Assembly: GCA_030620115.1 (NCBI GenBank)
Contig: JAUXFG010000228.1
Span: forward strand, 1 to 5,082
DNA: 5,082 nucleotides
Reading direction: 5' to 3'
Source of the DNA: Candidatus Fermentibacterota bacterium
GTDB lineage: Bacteria > JAFGKV01
Below are positions 1 to 4,586 of this stretch, piece after piece; within the stretch, counting starts at the first letter, position 1, and every line of letters begins with the position of its first letter. Under the pieces are notes generated by a model. The model had not been told where the DNA came from and did not search any database. It was given only the letters and a program-made list of their open reading frames with translations. A program made the position numbers and the translations under genes.

Positions 1-1209
1 GAAGCTCTCAGCGGAGGTCCGAAGCCGTCAGCCGAGCCCGGCCGGCTCCTTTCATGGATTTCGACAGCAGAGGAAAGAATCGGCGCGTCGGATAGAAGCA
101 TCGCGCTGAGAATCGCTGCGGTGGCGTCCGCAGGTGATGAAAACAAGGCACGAGCGATCTTTGCCGAAGCCACGCGAAGTCATGCCGGGGCAGTGGACTC
201 CCTTCTGGTGTGGAATCCGGATTTCGCTCCCTGGGGGCGCGCAGCGGCGTTTCTGGCCGGTGGAGATTTCTCTGTGGCGGCTGCACTTTCGGCGTGTGCT
301 CCCCATGGATTTGCTGACGACATCAGCGCTGAACTCGCGGCGCGTGTGTTGCTTTCGGTAGGTTTGGAGAGCGAGGCATGTACGCTGACATGTTTCCCTC
401 GCTTCATCGACGCGGGGTGGGCGAACTATGTCCGCTGGAGGGTACACACGCCCTATGACGCAACAGTCCGGTGCCGAAACATAGGATCCCAGCCCATTCT
501 TGTCGATGACACAGGAACCCATATGCTCCTCAGAGGTGAGCCGGCGCGCGGTGTCTGGCCGCGGTTTGATGTCGACTGCCGGGGCGTGCACCATGAGGGC
601 GTCGTTTCCTCGGATGCTTGGGTGCTTCTTGAGACAGCCTCGCCCTGCTCACTTCGCTTTGTCAATGATTTGCGATCCTATCTGGATGATCGCAATCTCT
701 TGTATGGCGGTCTTCGGCGGCTGCCGCAGATTTCAGGTATCCCTGCGGACATGGATCAGAGGGCATTCTGGCAGCGTGTTCTGGCCAGGGTTCATTCGTG
801 GGATGAAGAACCACCGCCATGGGTCCTCTTGGAAAATTTTGAAGCAGTGACCACACTTGAGGCAAGAGAGCCATCTTGGACCCATGGTGTGTCTTCCGAT
901 TCTTCAGGATGGATGCTTTTCAGCCCTTCCTGGATGGCCTGGGAGGGCCTTTCGGGAACCATACTCGTGGTCATGCGCGGACAGCCGGCCGCTCGCCGTT
1001 GGCCCTTGGTGGAGGTGAGTAGCGAAGACTGGGTAACTCGCGAAGTCGTTGACAGCCGGACGTGGAAGGTGTTTGAGTTCCATCTGCCTGAGTGCGCGGT
1101 GGCGTGCACTCTCCGCTTTGTGAACGATTATTGGGATCCAGCGTCCGGAGATGATAGGAATCTCTGGATCCAGGGGCTCTATTCTTCTCCGCTTTTGCAT
1201 AAGGGGTAA
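1..1209 (+). CDS. Carbohydrate-binding protein with TPR-like helices and tandem CBM36/60-like units (5' end missing)
   Basis: The frame is open from base 1 to the TAA at 1207-1209, giving 402 visible codons; the true start lies left of the window. GTG 121 is only the first start-like codon and has no Shine-Dalgarno. Codons 1 to about 130 are alanine-rich amphipathic helices with TPR-like spacing, for example SAGDENKARAIFAEA and FLAGGDFSVAAALSA. The rest is rich in beta strand and aromatics, with two copies of the pattern RGxPA, WP, LRFVND, DDRNL, GL (codons about 174-239 and 321-393). That pattern matches what I know of the calcium-dependent CBM36/CBM60 xylan-binding families, where the acidic and Asn residues of ND and DRN are candidates for calcium and sugar contact. 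No membrane helix or catalytic domain is visible, and secretion cannot be judged. It lies 5 bases before the Wzz-like gene, so a role in binding, guiding or tethering the polymer is inferred. It could also be the tail of an enzyme whose catalytic part is upstream. Confidence 0.8.
   Translation, partial: EALSGGPKPSAEPGRLLSWISTAEERIGASDRSIALRIAAVASAGDENKARAIFAEATRSHAGAVDSLLVWNPDFAPWGRAAAFLAGGDFSVAAALSACAPHGFADDISAELAARVLLSVGLESEACTLTCFPRFIDAGWANYVRWRVHTPYDATVRCRNIGSQPILVDDTGTHMLLRGEPARGVWPRFDVDCRGVHHEGVVSSDAWVLLETASPCSLRFVNDLRSYLDDRNLLYGGLRRLPQISGIPADMDQRAFWQRVLARVHSWDEEPPPWVLLENFEAVTTLEAREPSWTHGVSSDSSGWMLFSPSWMAWEGLSGTILVVMRGQPAARRWPLVEVSSEDWVTREVVDSRTWKVFEFHLPECAVACTLRFVNDYWDPASGDDRNLWIQGLYSSPLLHKG
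520..717 (+). other. First CBM36/60-like carbohydrate-binding unit
   Basis: This stretch encodes roughly 66 residues beginning HMLLRGEPARGVWPRF and ending SLRFVNDLRSYLDDRNLLYG plus GL. It aligns by eye with the second unit at 961-1179. The RG-P-A, W-P, LRFVND and DDRNL blocks are the diagnostic part and are typical of calcium-dependent CBM36/CBM60 modules. The spacing between ND and DDRNL is 5 residues, against 7 in the second copy, so the sugar-binding loop differs in length. The domain edges are approximate, and the preceding beta-rich residues (from about base 400) may belong to the fold. Confidence 0.7.
961..1179 (+). other. Second CBM36/60-like carbohydrate-binding unit
   Basis: This stretch encodes about 73 residues with MRGQPAARRWP near its start and TLRFVNDYWDPASGDDRNL near its end. 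By eye about 25 positions are identical to the first unit over some 65 aligned residues, so the two arose by an old internal duplication. This copy has the longer loop between ND and DDRNL, with an aromatic pair (YW) that could stack on a sugar ring. It also has two cysteines, CAVAC, four residues apart just before the signature. Confidence 0.72.
1201..1206 (+). promoter_or_regulatory. Ribosome binding site for the Wzz-like gene
   Basis: AAGGGG ends 8 bases before the ATG at 1215 and overlaps the last two sense codons of the upstream gene. It supports the ATG at 1215 as the start and suggests both genes are read from one transcript. Confidence 0.6.
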
Positions 1210-1214
1210 GAAAG

Positions 1215-1988
1215 ATGGACGACCGAACCAAAATCAGAGCGCTTATCTCCAAGTCCTGGCTTCTGGTGCTCTGTTTCATTCTTGTGACGGGAATCTCATG
1301 GATTGTTCTGGATGCGCTTGTATCTCCGGTCTATCTAAGCACCGGAATTGTCGAACTCGGCTATTTTAACCCTCGAGATTTCTTGCCTCATCCCGTGGTC
1401 TCCACCAGTGGTCTGACGGCACTGATTGGGGACGCTTCTTTCTCGCAGCAGGTGGCCAAGATCTTGGGATCTGAGGGAATGATGGATCCTGCTCCCGTGG
1501 TAGGTGCTGCTCCCCTTGAAGAGGGGCTGATCAGAGTCGAGGCCAGGGAAGGGAGGAGCGAGGTGGCGAGGCGAGCGACGGTAGTGGCCTGCTCGTTGGT
1601 GGTGGACATGAGCAACCAAGGGTACGAACGGGAACGTTCGTTGCTCGAGAAGCAACTCGCACTTGTTCGTAGCCGATCCGCGCTGGCTGAATCCCTCATC
1701 AGAGTGGGGCATGAATCCTCGCGCGCAGACGGACAGCACATGGGGAGTGAAGCCATGAGAGCATTGGCCCATCTCACTGAGATACAATTGAAGACCGAGA
1801 CCGCAACGGAACATGTCAGACAGAAGAAACGGACCCGGATCTTGGTGACACCCGGGGCAGCTCATGCTGATCGCCCATCCACCAGAGCGCTGGCCTTGGT
1901 CCCGGGATTTATCGTAACTCTGCTCCTGGGTGTGGCTCTCGCGGCGAATGCGGGATCCTCCGGGGGCAGACCATCCGAAACATCTTGA
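1215..1988 (+). CDS. Wzz-like polysaccharide co-polymerase (chain length determinant), no kinase domain
   Basis: The 257-residue product has the two-helix layout of the Wzz/PCP family. A charged N-terminus (MDDRTKIRALISKSW) is followed by a membrane helix at about 15-36, then SPVYLSTGIVELGYF, like the conserved strand after helix 1. GLIRVEAREGRSEVARRA matches the family's V-x-x-(D/E)-x-x-P/S-x-x-A stretch. A coiled coil follows at about 137-206, and a second membrane helix at about 224-245 (ALALVPGFIVTLLLGVALAA) lies after a proline-containing approach. Family members form inner-membrane rings that set the length of the polymer made by Wzy. The C-terminal tail is about 12 residues with no Walker A or tyrosine cluster, so no BY-kinase is fused. 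The periplasmic part (about 185 residues) is short for the family. ATG 1215 has a good ribosome binding site, and the stop overlaps the next start, consistent with action alongside the polymerase. Confidence 0.75.
   Translation: MDDRTKIRALISKSWLLVLCFILVTGISWIVLDALVSPVYLSTGIVELGYFNPRDFLPHPVVSTSGLTALIGDASFSQQVAKILGSEGMMDPAPVVGAAPLEEGLIRVEAREGRSEVARRATVVACSLVVDMSNQGYERERSLLEKQLALVRSRSALAESLIRVGHESSRADGQHMGSEAMRALAHLTEIQLKTETATEHVRQKKRTRILVTPGAAHADRPSTRALALVPGFIVTLLLGVALAANAGSSGGRPSETS
1985..1988 (+). promoter_or_regulatory. TTGA stop/start overlap coupling the co-polymerase and polymerase genes
   Basis: The TGA that ends the Wzz-like gene (1986-1988) shares bases with a TTG start (1985-1987) for the next gene. 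The upstream frame of the second gene is open but has no ATG or GTG nearby. The only G-rich run (GGGGG, 1962-1966) is about 18 bases away, too far for a normal Shine-Dalgarno. Start by ribosomes that have just terminated is therefore the likely mode, which is inference. A second TTG at 2054 has GGGAG five bases ahead, but using it would remove the first membrane helix. Confidence 0.5.
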
Positions 1989-3427
1989 AACGGCTCGGTA
2001 TCGGCGGGGCCATCTGGCTTCTTGCTCTGGCTCCTATCCTTCTGGGAGCTCCCTTGAAGATCGCTGTCGCAGTATGGTGCCTGATCTCCACGGCCATCAT
2101 ACTGGTACCGCCTGGGCGCAGGGCACAGCGCGCAACGGCTATTTACCTGTTTCTGATTGTCTTTCCCATGGTAGACTATATCGGTGAAGCGGGAGCGGGA
2201 AGCATAGGAGGCGCCCCGGTGAGCCTTGCATACTATCCTGCTGATTTCTGGCTGCTCCTGGCAATCGGCTTCGCCCTATTCGAGCGCGATCTGAGAGCAC
2301 CGGATCCTCGGTTCCGTCGTCTTTTGTTGGCTGCGGGTGCGTTCTCCTTCCTCGTCCTTCCCTCGGTCTTCATAGCATGCAGTCCAATCTCCGCGCTGCA
2401 GCAATGGTTCGTGATTCCTCGGGCCGCAGTGCTAGGCCTCCTCGTCTTTTCCCAGGCGCGTCGGCGGGATGGCTTCCGGCTTCTGATCGCCTCGTTGATG
2501 GCGGGATTCGTGGTCCAGATTGTCGTGGCCGCCGCACAGCAGGCTTTGGGATCGGTGCTCGATCTGGGACTGCTGGGAGAAGCGCCACAAAAGCATCTAT
2601 TCAAGTACATTGCCCATGGTGTACCACTCTGGCGGTCAGGTGGGACAATGGGGCATCCAAACGTATTCGCGACGTATCTGCTGGGCATGTTGAGTGCCGT
2701 TCTTGGGCTCACACTCTCCAGGCGTTCCCCGATTTCACGAGGGGGCATGGGCCTTCTTTTTCTTGGCGGGCTCGCCGCGCTGGTCTGGTCGTATTCTCGC
2801 GCTGCGTGGGCCGTGGGGATGCTTACACTCGGTCCACTCATGCTGTGGGCCATGTGGCGAGTTCTACCCAGACGCGTCGCTTTGGGGTCTGTGGCCATTT
2901 TGGCTCTGGTGATGGTGTTGGTCGCACCTGCGGTCACATTCAGACTGATCAAGACGGAATCCAGTGCGACTGATGTGAGACGTGTCTTGATTCCCGTGGC
3001 ATTGCAAATGACGTCGGTCTACCCGTGGTTCGGTGTGGGTCTGAGTGAATTCTCGGATAGGATCCCCTCGTTCGATCCTCTGAGGAAGCTTGGCCAGTTC
3101 AGGCATCCTGTCCACAATATTGTCCTGCTTGATCTTGCCGAGGGAGGAGTTCTTGGTGGACTGGGGAGCCTGATCCTTTGGATTGGCGTTCTTTCCGTCG
3201 CACTCTCCGGGGTTTGCAGGAGAGGAGACGTGAAGAGCATGATAACCAAGGGAATATGGGTTGGCGTCGTGGCCATGGTGTTCCATAACTGCGTGGACTG
3301 GACAGCGCGCTGTCCAGTCATCGAGCTGCTCCTCTGGACTCTTATGGGCTTGGCATGTGGCGCTTCCGCGGGAGAGACTGCGAGGAGTGGTCGGAGTATA
3401 GGCCCTAAGGAGCTGGAGCATGCGTAG
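1985..3427 (+). CDS. O-antigen ligase / polysaccharide polymerase family membrane protein (Wzy_C type)
   Basis: The 480-residue product is very hydrophobic, with about 12 predicted membrane helices and one larger outer loop at about 318-388. Family marks appear in the expected order. GGTMGHPN (219-226) matches the GT-x-x-HPN motif. SYSRAAW (269-275) follows at the start of a helix, where SxSR is usual. In the large loop GVGLSEF (350-356) precedes HPVHN (374-378) and DLAEGGVLGG (383-392), the HN-x(4)-D-x-x-E-G block. Near the end FHNCVDW (433-439) resembles the H-x-x-x-D of the family. Members act at the outer face of the inner membrane. They either polymerise lipid-linked repeat units (Wzy) or transfer the finished chain to an acceptor (WaaL). 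The adjacent Wzz-like and Wzx-like genes favour polymerase, but the sequence does not settle it. The TTG start is chosen from the overlap and because it keeps the first helix; the first ATG is at 2168, far inside. Confidence 0.83.
   Translation: MKRLGIGGAIWLLALAPILLGAPLKIAVAVWCLISTAIILVPPGRRAQRATAIYLFLIVFPMVDYIGEAGAGSIGGAPVSLAYYPADFWLLLAIGFALFERDLRAPDPRFRRLLLAAGAFSFLVLPSVFIACSPISALQQWFVIPRAAVLGLLVFSQARRRDGFRLLIASLMAGFVVQIVVAAAQQALGSVLDLGLLGEAPQKHLFKYIAHGVPLWRSGGTMGHPNVFATYLLGMLSAVLGLTLSRRSPISRGGMGLLFLGGLAALVWSYSRAAWAVGMLTLGPLMLWAMWRVLPRRVALGSVAILALVMVLVAPAVTFRLIKTESSATDVRRVLIPVALQMTSVYPWFGVGLSEFSDRIPSFDPLRKLGQFRHPVHNIVLLDLAEGGVLGGLGSLILWIGVLSVALSGVCRRGDVKSMITKGIWVGVVAMVFHNCVDWTARCPVIELLLWTLMGLACGASAGETARSGRSIGPKELEHA
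3296..3319 (+). repeat. Perfect 24-base palindrome inside the polymerase gene
   Basis: GACTGGACAGCG is followed directly by its exact reverse complement CGCTGTCCAGTC. As RNA it could form a 10-pair stem with a CGCG loop. There is no T-run after it, so it does not look like an intrinsic terminator, and it lies about 108 bases before the end of an intact reading frame. It encodes residues DWTARCPV of the polymerase, next to the conserved H-x-x-x-D segment. Because the site is palindromic, the opposite strand reads the same residues. Confidence 0.85.
3407..3412 (+). promoter_or_regulatory. Ribosome binding site for the flippase gene
   Basis: AAGGAG lies 7 bases before the ATG at 3420 and inside the end of the polymerase gene. 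It is the strongest Shine-Dalgarno in the window. It decides for ATG 3420 over the in-frame ATG at 3435. Confidence 0.75.
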
Positions 3428-4586
3428 TGCCACCATGTACTTGTCCATGGCACGGGCATTGGGCCCCGGGGTGTCCGTGGTGCTCATCGTACTCCTGGCC
3501 CGGAGGAACGGCCCGGAGGAAGTGGGCATCTACGGCCTTGCCCTGGCCGTTTTCGCACTGCTCGAAGCAGCCGCGTCCCTGGGGATGCGGCACCTTCTGC
3601 CGCGTGAGCTCGCGCGGGGTCATAATCAGCAGTTATTGGCCACGGGAGCGGCGCTCTGTCTCGGCGCCGGTCTTCTTCTTTGTCTCGGGCTGATATGTAT
3701 CTCCGGGTTATTCGTGTCGCCGACGACCGGGCATGTTCTTGCAGTTGTAGCGTTAGCACTTCCATTTTCGGGACTGATGGTGGCAGCAGAGGGGTATTGG
3801 ATCGCGACTCAGCATGTCGGAAGGCTTGTGAAGGCGCTCGTTCTAGAACAGGCCATTCGTCTTGTCACCGGGCTCGTGATTGTTGCCGCGGGATATGGCG
3901 CCATTGGTCTCATGTGCTGCTTCGTCCTGGGGCGTCTCACGGCAGCGGTGCTCGCGCGACCTCCCGGAGGGTTTTCTTTGGCACGCTCCGCTCGCTCAAC
4001 AGCTCTGTCTCTCATGCGGGAGATCCCCATCTTCGTGGGCCTGGAAGCGTGCTTCCAGCTCTATTGGCGAGTCGACGTGCTCTTGCTCAGCCTCATTTCC
4101 AGCAAGGCTGAGACAGGCTACTATGTTGCCGCCTATCGGATCTTCTCTGCGCTGCTATTATTACCCCAAAGCTATGGCCAGATCCTTCTTCCCCGGCTCG
4201 TCAAGAGCCAGGGAGACGGGCTTTTTCGTCGCGGCATACGGGACATGGCGTTTCTAGGCGGGGCCATGGCGGTGGCCACAATCCTTCTTGCAAGAACGGG
4301 GACGGGTGTGCTTTACGGCCCTGGCTACCAACGATCTGCGCTCATTCTCGTCATACTTGCGATGGGACTCCTCCCGGCAAGCGTGGACCAGCCACAGGGC
4401 AGAGCTCTCGTGGCAGCCGGCCGGCAAAGCAAGGACCTTGCCGCACTGGCCGCAGCCACGGGAACGAACATTTGCCTCAATCTGCTCTTGATACCATCCT
4501 TTGGCGGGCTGGGAGCTGCGTGGGCGACCATCGCATCACTGATAGTGTCAGTCTTGGCTCACAGAATGGCCCTTAGTCCGGGCTAG
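3420..4586 (+). CDS. wzx: Wzx-like polysaccharide flippase (MOP superfamily)
   Basis: The 388-residue product is predicted to cross the membrane about 12 times. Its N-terminal stretch ARRNGPEEVGIYGLALAV (27-44) matches the L-G-P-x-x-(F/Y)-G-x-Y-x-L-A signature of polysaccharide exporters. In the middle, RVDVLLLSLISS then ETGYYVAAYRI (217-241) match the usual R-x-D-x-L-L-L ... G-x-Y-x-A-A-Y-R. Near the end LNLLLIPSFGGLGAAWAT (353-370) matches the L-N-x-x-L-I-P-x-x-G-x-x-G-A-A-x-A-T hallmark. Such proteins move undecaprenyl-linked sugar units from the inner to the outer face of the cytoplasmic membrane. The length is compact, because many relatives run to 420-480 residues with a longer tail. 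The start is fixed by a strong ribosome binding site, and the gene overlaps the polymerase by 8 bases, implying co-translation. The substrate cannot be deduced. Confidence 0.85.
   Translation: MRSATMYLSMARALGPGVSVVLIVLLARRNGPEEVGIYGLALAVFALLEAAASLGMRHLLPRELARGHNQQLLATGAALCLGAGLLLCLGLICISGLFVSPTTGHVLAVVALALPFSGLMVAAEGYWIATQHVGRLVKALVLEQAIRLVTGLVIVAAGYGAIGLMCCFVLGRLTAAVLARPPGGFSLARSARSTALSLMREIPIFVGLEACFQLYWRVDVLLLSLISSKAETGYYVAAYRIFSALLLLPQSYGQILLPRLVKSQGDGLFRRGIRDMAFLGGAMAVATILLARTGTGVLYGPGYQRSALILVILAMGLLPASVDQPQGRALVAAGRQSKDLAALAAATGTNICLNLLLIPSFGGLGAAWATIASLIVSVLAHRMALSPG

Follow-up and report, generated by a model that had tools for sequence, protein, structure and literature searches.

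A membrane-anchored pair of CBM36/60-type modules encoded beside Wzz, Wzy and Wzx, a candidate receptor for nascent polysaccharide

In Wzy-dependent systems it is still debated how the growing chain is held and measured in the periplasm. Several polysaccharide-assembly proteins carry CBMs that act on the cell's own glycan. Wzt of the WzmWzt transporter recognises its own chain via a C-terminal CBM (PMC9445017, PMC11127046), and for GT136 (ORF12) pull-downs show binding of the CBM to the enzyme's own O-polysaccharide, yet the CBM is not essential (PMC11127046). In EmbC a CBM-like subdomain is required for normal LAM synthesis, and the EmbC calcium site superposes on that of CBM36 within 0.9 Å (PMC3044687). 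The jelly roll of Wzc, a CBM-like fold that faces the periplasm in a Wzy-dependent complex, has been proposed to receive the repeat unit, and deletion of this domain leaves almost no capsule (PMC12881504). For CBM36 and CBM60 themselves the characterised ligands are xylan, galactan or cellulose (PMC9165906, PMC9107766).

The locus analysed here shares features with each of these systems and also differs from each. A CBM in a polysaccharide-assembly machine is common to Wzt and the present protein, but that of Wzt is of a different type, sits on an ABC transporter ATPase and reads the modified chain end. EmbC/AftD and GT136 have in common with our protein a CBM on a membrane protein, extracytoplasmic in their case and predicted to be so here; there, however, the CBMs are fused to a GT-C transferase, whereas Pfam finds no transferase domain in the protein encoded here or in its full-length orthologue from genome G001. 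The Wzc jelly roll is part of the co-polymerase, while the present module has a protein of its own, whose neighbour is a small Wzz-like protein.

The window, i.e. the whole stretch of DNA that was analysed, is a complete contig of 5,082 bases (C273) from a fragmented Candidatus Fermentibacterota genome (4.1 Mb in 296 contigs). All its genes lie on the plus strand and either overlap or are at most 12 nt apart. The CBM-bearing gene is represented by its 3' part (1-1209, 402 amino acids visible, 5' end open), and its stop codon is separated by 5 nt from the ATG of a gene for a Wzz-like polysaccharide co-polymerase (1215-1988). This protein of 257 amino acids has a membrane helix at each end and scores 17.1 bits with Pfam Wzz, under the cut-off of 25.5; topology and synteny agree with Wzz, and the syntenic G001 protein is 49% identical. 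It is followed by a Wzy/O-antigen ligase family protein (1985-3427, 480 amino acids; Wzy_C 57.8 bits, above the cut-off of 31.7) and by a Wzx-type flippase (3420-4586, 388 amino acids) above the Pfam cut-offs for both Polysacc_synt_3 (53.9 bits versus 23) and Polysacc_synt (about 54 bits versus 28.2). A glycosyltransferase gene truncated by the contig end (4599-5081) completes the window; its product is 42% identical to the G001 counterpart, which matches Glyco_trans_1_4.

Within the CBM-bearing protein a helical spacer (37-447) leads from the membrane part to module copy 1 (454-741) and module copy 2 (862-1206). Copy 1 reads RGEPA...WP...LRFVNDLRSYLDDRNL, with its motifs at 532-546 and 658-699, and copy 2 reads RGQPA...WP...LRFVNDYWDPASGDDRNL, with motifs at 976-990 and 1117-1164. 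Pairwise comparison gives 36% identity over 77 amino acids with an E value of 1e-10, so the likeness between the copies is not due to chance. The initial annotation, which had described tandem diverged units at 400-1209 directly before the co-polymerase, polymerase and flippase, is thus confirmed in arrangement and coordinates. CBM60 (PF16841) is the only Pfam family matched by the modules. Copy 2 reaches 23.9 bits, i.e. below the cut-off of 28.2, and copy 1 has no Pfam match of its own; the G001 orthologue is above the cut-off with 29.0 bits. When the window protein and the module profiles were searched against the sequences of solved structures, nothing significant was returned, the best match being the CBM36 part of xylanase J (E 0.47), and a scan of GTDB contigs with the window protein as query found no relative. 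No hydrolase had been visible in the initial annotation, and in agreement with this Pfam detects no hydrolase domain in the carrier, which has membrane helices, or in the G001 orthologue. The spacer had been described as TPR-like. Its helices are present in a model of low to moderate confidence, while Pfam TPR has no match in this protein, and NCBIfam yields just TPR-level matches far under cut-off, such as PrsT, LapB and PilW.

We modelled copy 2 from an alignment of 23 modules. The model adopts a CBM jelly roll with a mean pLDDT of 92.1. CBM36 structures head the VIA-align matches (7ay3, Z 11.9; 6kka, 11.7; 1ux7, 11.4), and 7ay3 aligns end to end with an rmsd of 2.9 over 104 residues. CE2 jelly rolls tie with CBM36, and CBM35 and CBM6 rank after; the match therefore shows the fold class and does not prove membership of the CBM36 family. 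With Foldseek the copy 2 model has no match at E < 1e-3. The module has the same linear strand order as CBM36 (7ay3, 1ux7); a circularly permuted order relative to CBM36 is a mark of CBM60. It differs from CBM36 in that identity is about 7-12% and in not being attached to a hydrolase. With CBM60 it shares the RG..A..P and F.ND...DRNL core, but the window protein scores under the cut-off, lacks a sequence match to solved CBM60 structures and, as a carrier, is membrane-bound and encoded in an assembly locus. Solved CBM60 chains were absent from the sequence searches of solved structures and from the Foldseek and VIA-align matches listed, an absence that is not evidence against CBM60. The CBM36/60-like signature proposed initially is accordingly upheld, by CBM36 in structure and by a weak CBM60 match in sequence. 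The model of all 402 residues (pLDDT 64, moderate confidence for copy 1) is weak outside copy 2, too weak to place the two modules or to identify the helices as TPRs or otherwise; with TM-scores of about 0.2, the Foldseek matches of this model were set aside.

Conservation points to a candidate calcium site in the module. Among 57 distinct profile-found modules the copy 2 positions N88, D89, D98, R99 and N100 are conserved at 91, 84, 93, 96 and 95%, and both window copies keep all five residues. In CBM36-1 the side-chain ligands of the sugar-site calcium are Asp367 and Asp372 (PMC9165906). Asp89 of copy 2 pairs with Asp367 in two alignments, and the counterpart of Asp372 is Asp98 (hhalign) or lies in the Asn100 region (MAFFT), ambiguous by one or two residues. 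The module has candidate counterpart positions for the acidic sugar-site ligands, and the alignment together with the conserved loop makes a calcium site at the ND...DRN loop likely as judged from sequence. CBM36 has a second, structural calcium site, which the module apparently does not keep.

The missing N-terminal half of the protein is found on another contig. Over 137 bases at its start, the window overlaps the end of the reversed contig C263 with 86% identity; because the overlap is not identical, a mixture of strains at the contig ends is likely. An open reading frame on C263 encodes membrane helices at its start and runs in frame into this overlap; reading frame 1-1209 is the 3' part of this longer gene, and C263 carries the portion for the N-terminal membrane part. 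The searchable relatives were two other genomes of the window's family, all the rest sharing just the domain with it. In G001, from a second genus of the family, all eight genes occur in identical order on a single contig. This demonstrates that the gene is real and the synteny conserved, and contigs C263 and C273 very probably adjoin. The complete G001 orthologue, of 581 residues, has about five predicted membrane helices at its N-terminus and contains the two modules. Its residues 198-572 are 36% identical to the window protein, the N-terminal membrane part alone is 26% identical between the two genomes, and the eight syntenic proteins range from 34 to 54%. Upstream of the CBM gene, C263 encodes a 965-residue second Wzy-family protein with C-terminal TPRs (706-3603 of locus L009), and both genera have it immediately ahead of the CBM gene. 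Two further genes kept in both genera precede the polysaccharide genes (5371-8953), one for a TonB-dependent receptor and one for a YncE-like protein whose C-terminus weakly matches Por_Secre_tail.

The module recurs near Wzy and Wzz in other bacteria. A PF16841 search was positive in 20 of 386 genomes, and a Wzy_C gene lies within 10 kb of the module in 9 of 23 clusters compared with 0.78 expected. Leaving out the window's phylum gives 6 of 20 clusters (0.675 expected, P 2e-5), and taking one cluster per lineage 4 of 17 (P 0.001). Thermus composti, included as a named control, is also positive. In a Thermus-like family 22 of 50 genomes contain the module, and all 23 places directly adjoin a homologue of one same Wzy; the carrier in the one locus examined is a 137-residue single-helix protein. 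The small phylum of G014 has the module in 22 of 40 genomes. To Wzz we applied a sample of 21 positive genomes from the phyla of G014 and G350, with 38 module places in 13 families. Pfam Wzz lies within 2.5 kb at 8 of these places, where 0.135 are expected, and in 5 of the 13 families, while Wzy_C is near the module at at least 6 of the 38 places versus 1.99 expected (P 0.013), a moderate enrichment. In this set Wzz, not Wzy_C, is the stronger partner. Since the counts cover related genomes, the per-family figures are the safer ones.

Several of these loci repeat the gene order of the window, i.e. a TPR-module protein, Wzz and then Wzx/Wzy. The polysaccharide-locus context is kept in the second genus, and the module recurs beside Wzz, Wzy and Wzx in other lineages. 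Neither finding that would have counted against the initial annotation, a lack of any profile or structural match to CBM36/60 or a majority of homologues outside polysaccharide loci, was obtained. The initial annotation was nevertheless too narrow, as several other lineages have the module next to glycan-assembly proteins or as part of them; its description of the module as known chiefly from hydrolases of plant walls was overstated, given how common it is in glycan-assembly loci in our survey. In four loci (L047, L052, L122, L127) a Wzz-like co-polymerase is located between two different TPR-module proteins, and the gene that follows this group in L047 has a sequence that, as we read it, resembles a phosphodiester glycosidase.

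All three genomes of the window's family also contain a second module locus, in which three glycosyltransferases are followed by a small module protein, a 944-residue membrane protein and Wzy_C. The 944-residue protein has TPRs and, at its C-terminus, a module that scores 57 bits with CBM60 in the window's genome; its layout resembles that of EmbC and GT136. The small one-module protein (L013, 12426-13223) is lipoprotein-like in the window's genome, with a VSGC lipobox. Elsewhere the module forms the C-terminal tail of membrane proteins that resemble GT-C glycosyltransferases, once in three consecutive proteins. These three (L164, 5609-13248; G223:C29) have 7-9 predicted helices each and all end in the module; their neighbours are a membrane protein with several helices and two genes of nucleotide-sugar type.

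On the basis of the module fold, the conserved site, the operon, the synteny and the recurrence beside Wzz and Wzy, all computed here, we infer that the window protein is most likely a periplasmic calcium-dependent receptor for nascent polysaccharide. We give this reading as a whole, with its periplasmic side, calcium, ligand and assisted step inferred, somewhat better than an even chance. The protein would be an inner-membrane protein in which about five N-terminal membrane helices and a helical spacer precede two jelly rolls predicted to face the periplasm, and it would be produced together with the Wzz-like, Wzy, Wzx and glycosyltransferase proteins. Calcium in the ND...DRN loop of each module would probably grip hydroxyls of the polysaccharide chain flipped by Wzx and under polymerisation by Wzy. 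With the lipid-linked repeat, or the chain as it grows, retained at the Wzy/Wzz complex, polymerisation, length control or hand-off would be helped. The occurrence of the module beside glycan-assembly genes in several unrelated bacteria indicates that its probable task is to handle sugar chains made by the cell itself, and by analogy the parallels with GT136, EmbC, Wzc and Wzt make holding of the nascent chain plausible. A membrane-anchored module that holds the nascent chain is the simplest reading of the context. Weighing against it are the missing family match of copy 1, the sub-threshold scores of copy 2 and of the Wzz-like protein, the lack of a Foldseek match at E 1e-3, the ambiguous alignment at the second acidic ligand, the structural calcium site that is apparently not kept and the occurrence of the module in other kinds of loci.

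The same genes can be read in other ways. The jelly roll may be purely structural, docking the TPR/membrane protein on Wzz or Wzy with no sugar bound, and the loop may stabilise the fold with or without calcium. Jelly rolls are common folds, the module is distant in sequence from solved CBMs, and its structural match to CE2 domains is as good as that to CBM36. However, the near-invariant polar loop matches the CBM36 sugar-site calcium ligands, and elsewhere the module is fused to a GH16 hydrolase domain, so we regard pure docking as unlikely. Alternatively, the Wzy_C neighbour might be a ligase, to which, or to the acceptor, the modules present the finished chain, making the protein an attachment receptor. 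Pfam itself describes Wzy_C (PF04932) as O-antigen ligase, and as the locus encodes two Wzy-family proteins, the one on C263 with C-terminal TPRs, one of them may be a ligase. The module gene, however, adjoins the gene for the chain-length protein Wzz and not a ligase in several lineages, and a role in ligation seems rather improbable to us. That the modules bind an outside glycan such as a plant or microbial wall, the protein being a surface adhesin that is in the locus by chance, would fit the xylan, galactan or cellulose ligands of characterised relatives and the presence of PF16841 modules on probable secreted enzymes. About five N-terminal membrane helices are ill-suited to a surface adhesin, and the protein is tied to Wzz, Wzy and Wzx in the second genus and in analogous loci; we consider this reading very improbable.

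Returning to the receptor for the nascent chain, its general role is already known for other CBM types, since Wzt, EmbC and GT136 act on own glycans (PMC11127046, PMC9445017, PMC3044687). The role that the initial annotation put forward as possibly undescribed is in this sense known, and it is the recurrent pairing of a CBM36/60-type module with Wzz and Wzy across lineages that seems undescribed in the open literature. There we found no mention of PF16841, no description of the module with Wzz/Wzy in the portions accessible to us, subscription journals lying mostly outside the search, and no experiment on binding, localisation or knockout of the present module family. We tentatively propose, with a little less than an even chance, that a membrane-anchored, often TPR-containing, calcium-dependent module of this type is a recurrent extra subunit of Wzz/Wzy assembly in several phyla, where it would capture the nascent chain in the periplasm and so have a part in its polymerisation or in the control of its length. 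A sugar-binding partner that is small and separable and adjoins Wzz or Wzy in several lineages, including the Thermus-like single-helix protein, would offer a simple handle on how the chain is held and measured. In genome annotation, a CBM60 match does not imply plant-wall degradation.

Beyond glycan-assembly loci the module is also carried by cytochrome proteins of planctomycete type, by one GH16 protein and by one fn3 protein. CBM60-type modules on planctomycete-type proteins in a quite different context are found in L045, L046, L048, L060 and L061; the PSCyt3 match is displayed for L061, and the other four were assigned by neighbourhood. In most of these five loci a second conserved gene comes next. 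Finally, the wzy reading frame of the window contains a perfect palindrome of 24 bases, GACTGGACAGCGCGCTGTCCAGTC (3296-3319), compared with a longest palindrome of 18 bases among 100 codon shuffles.
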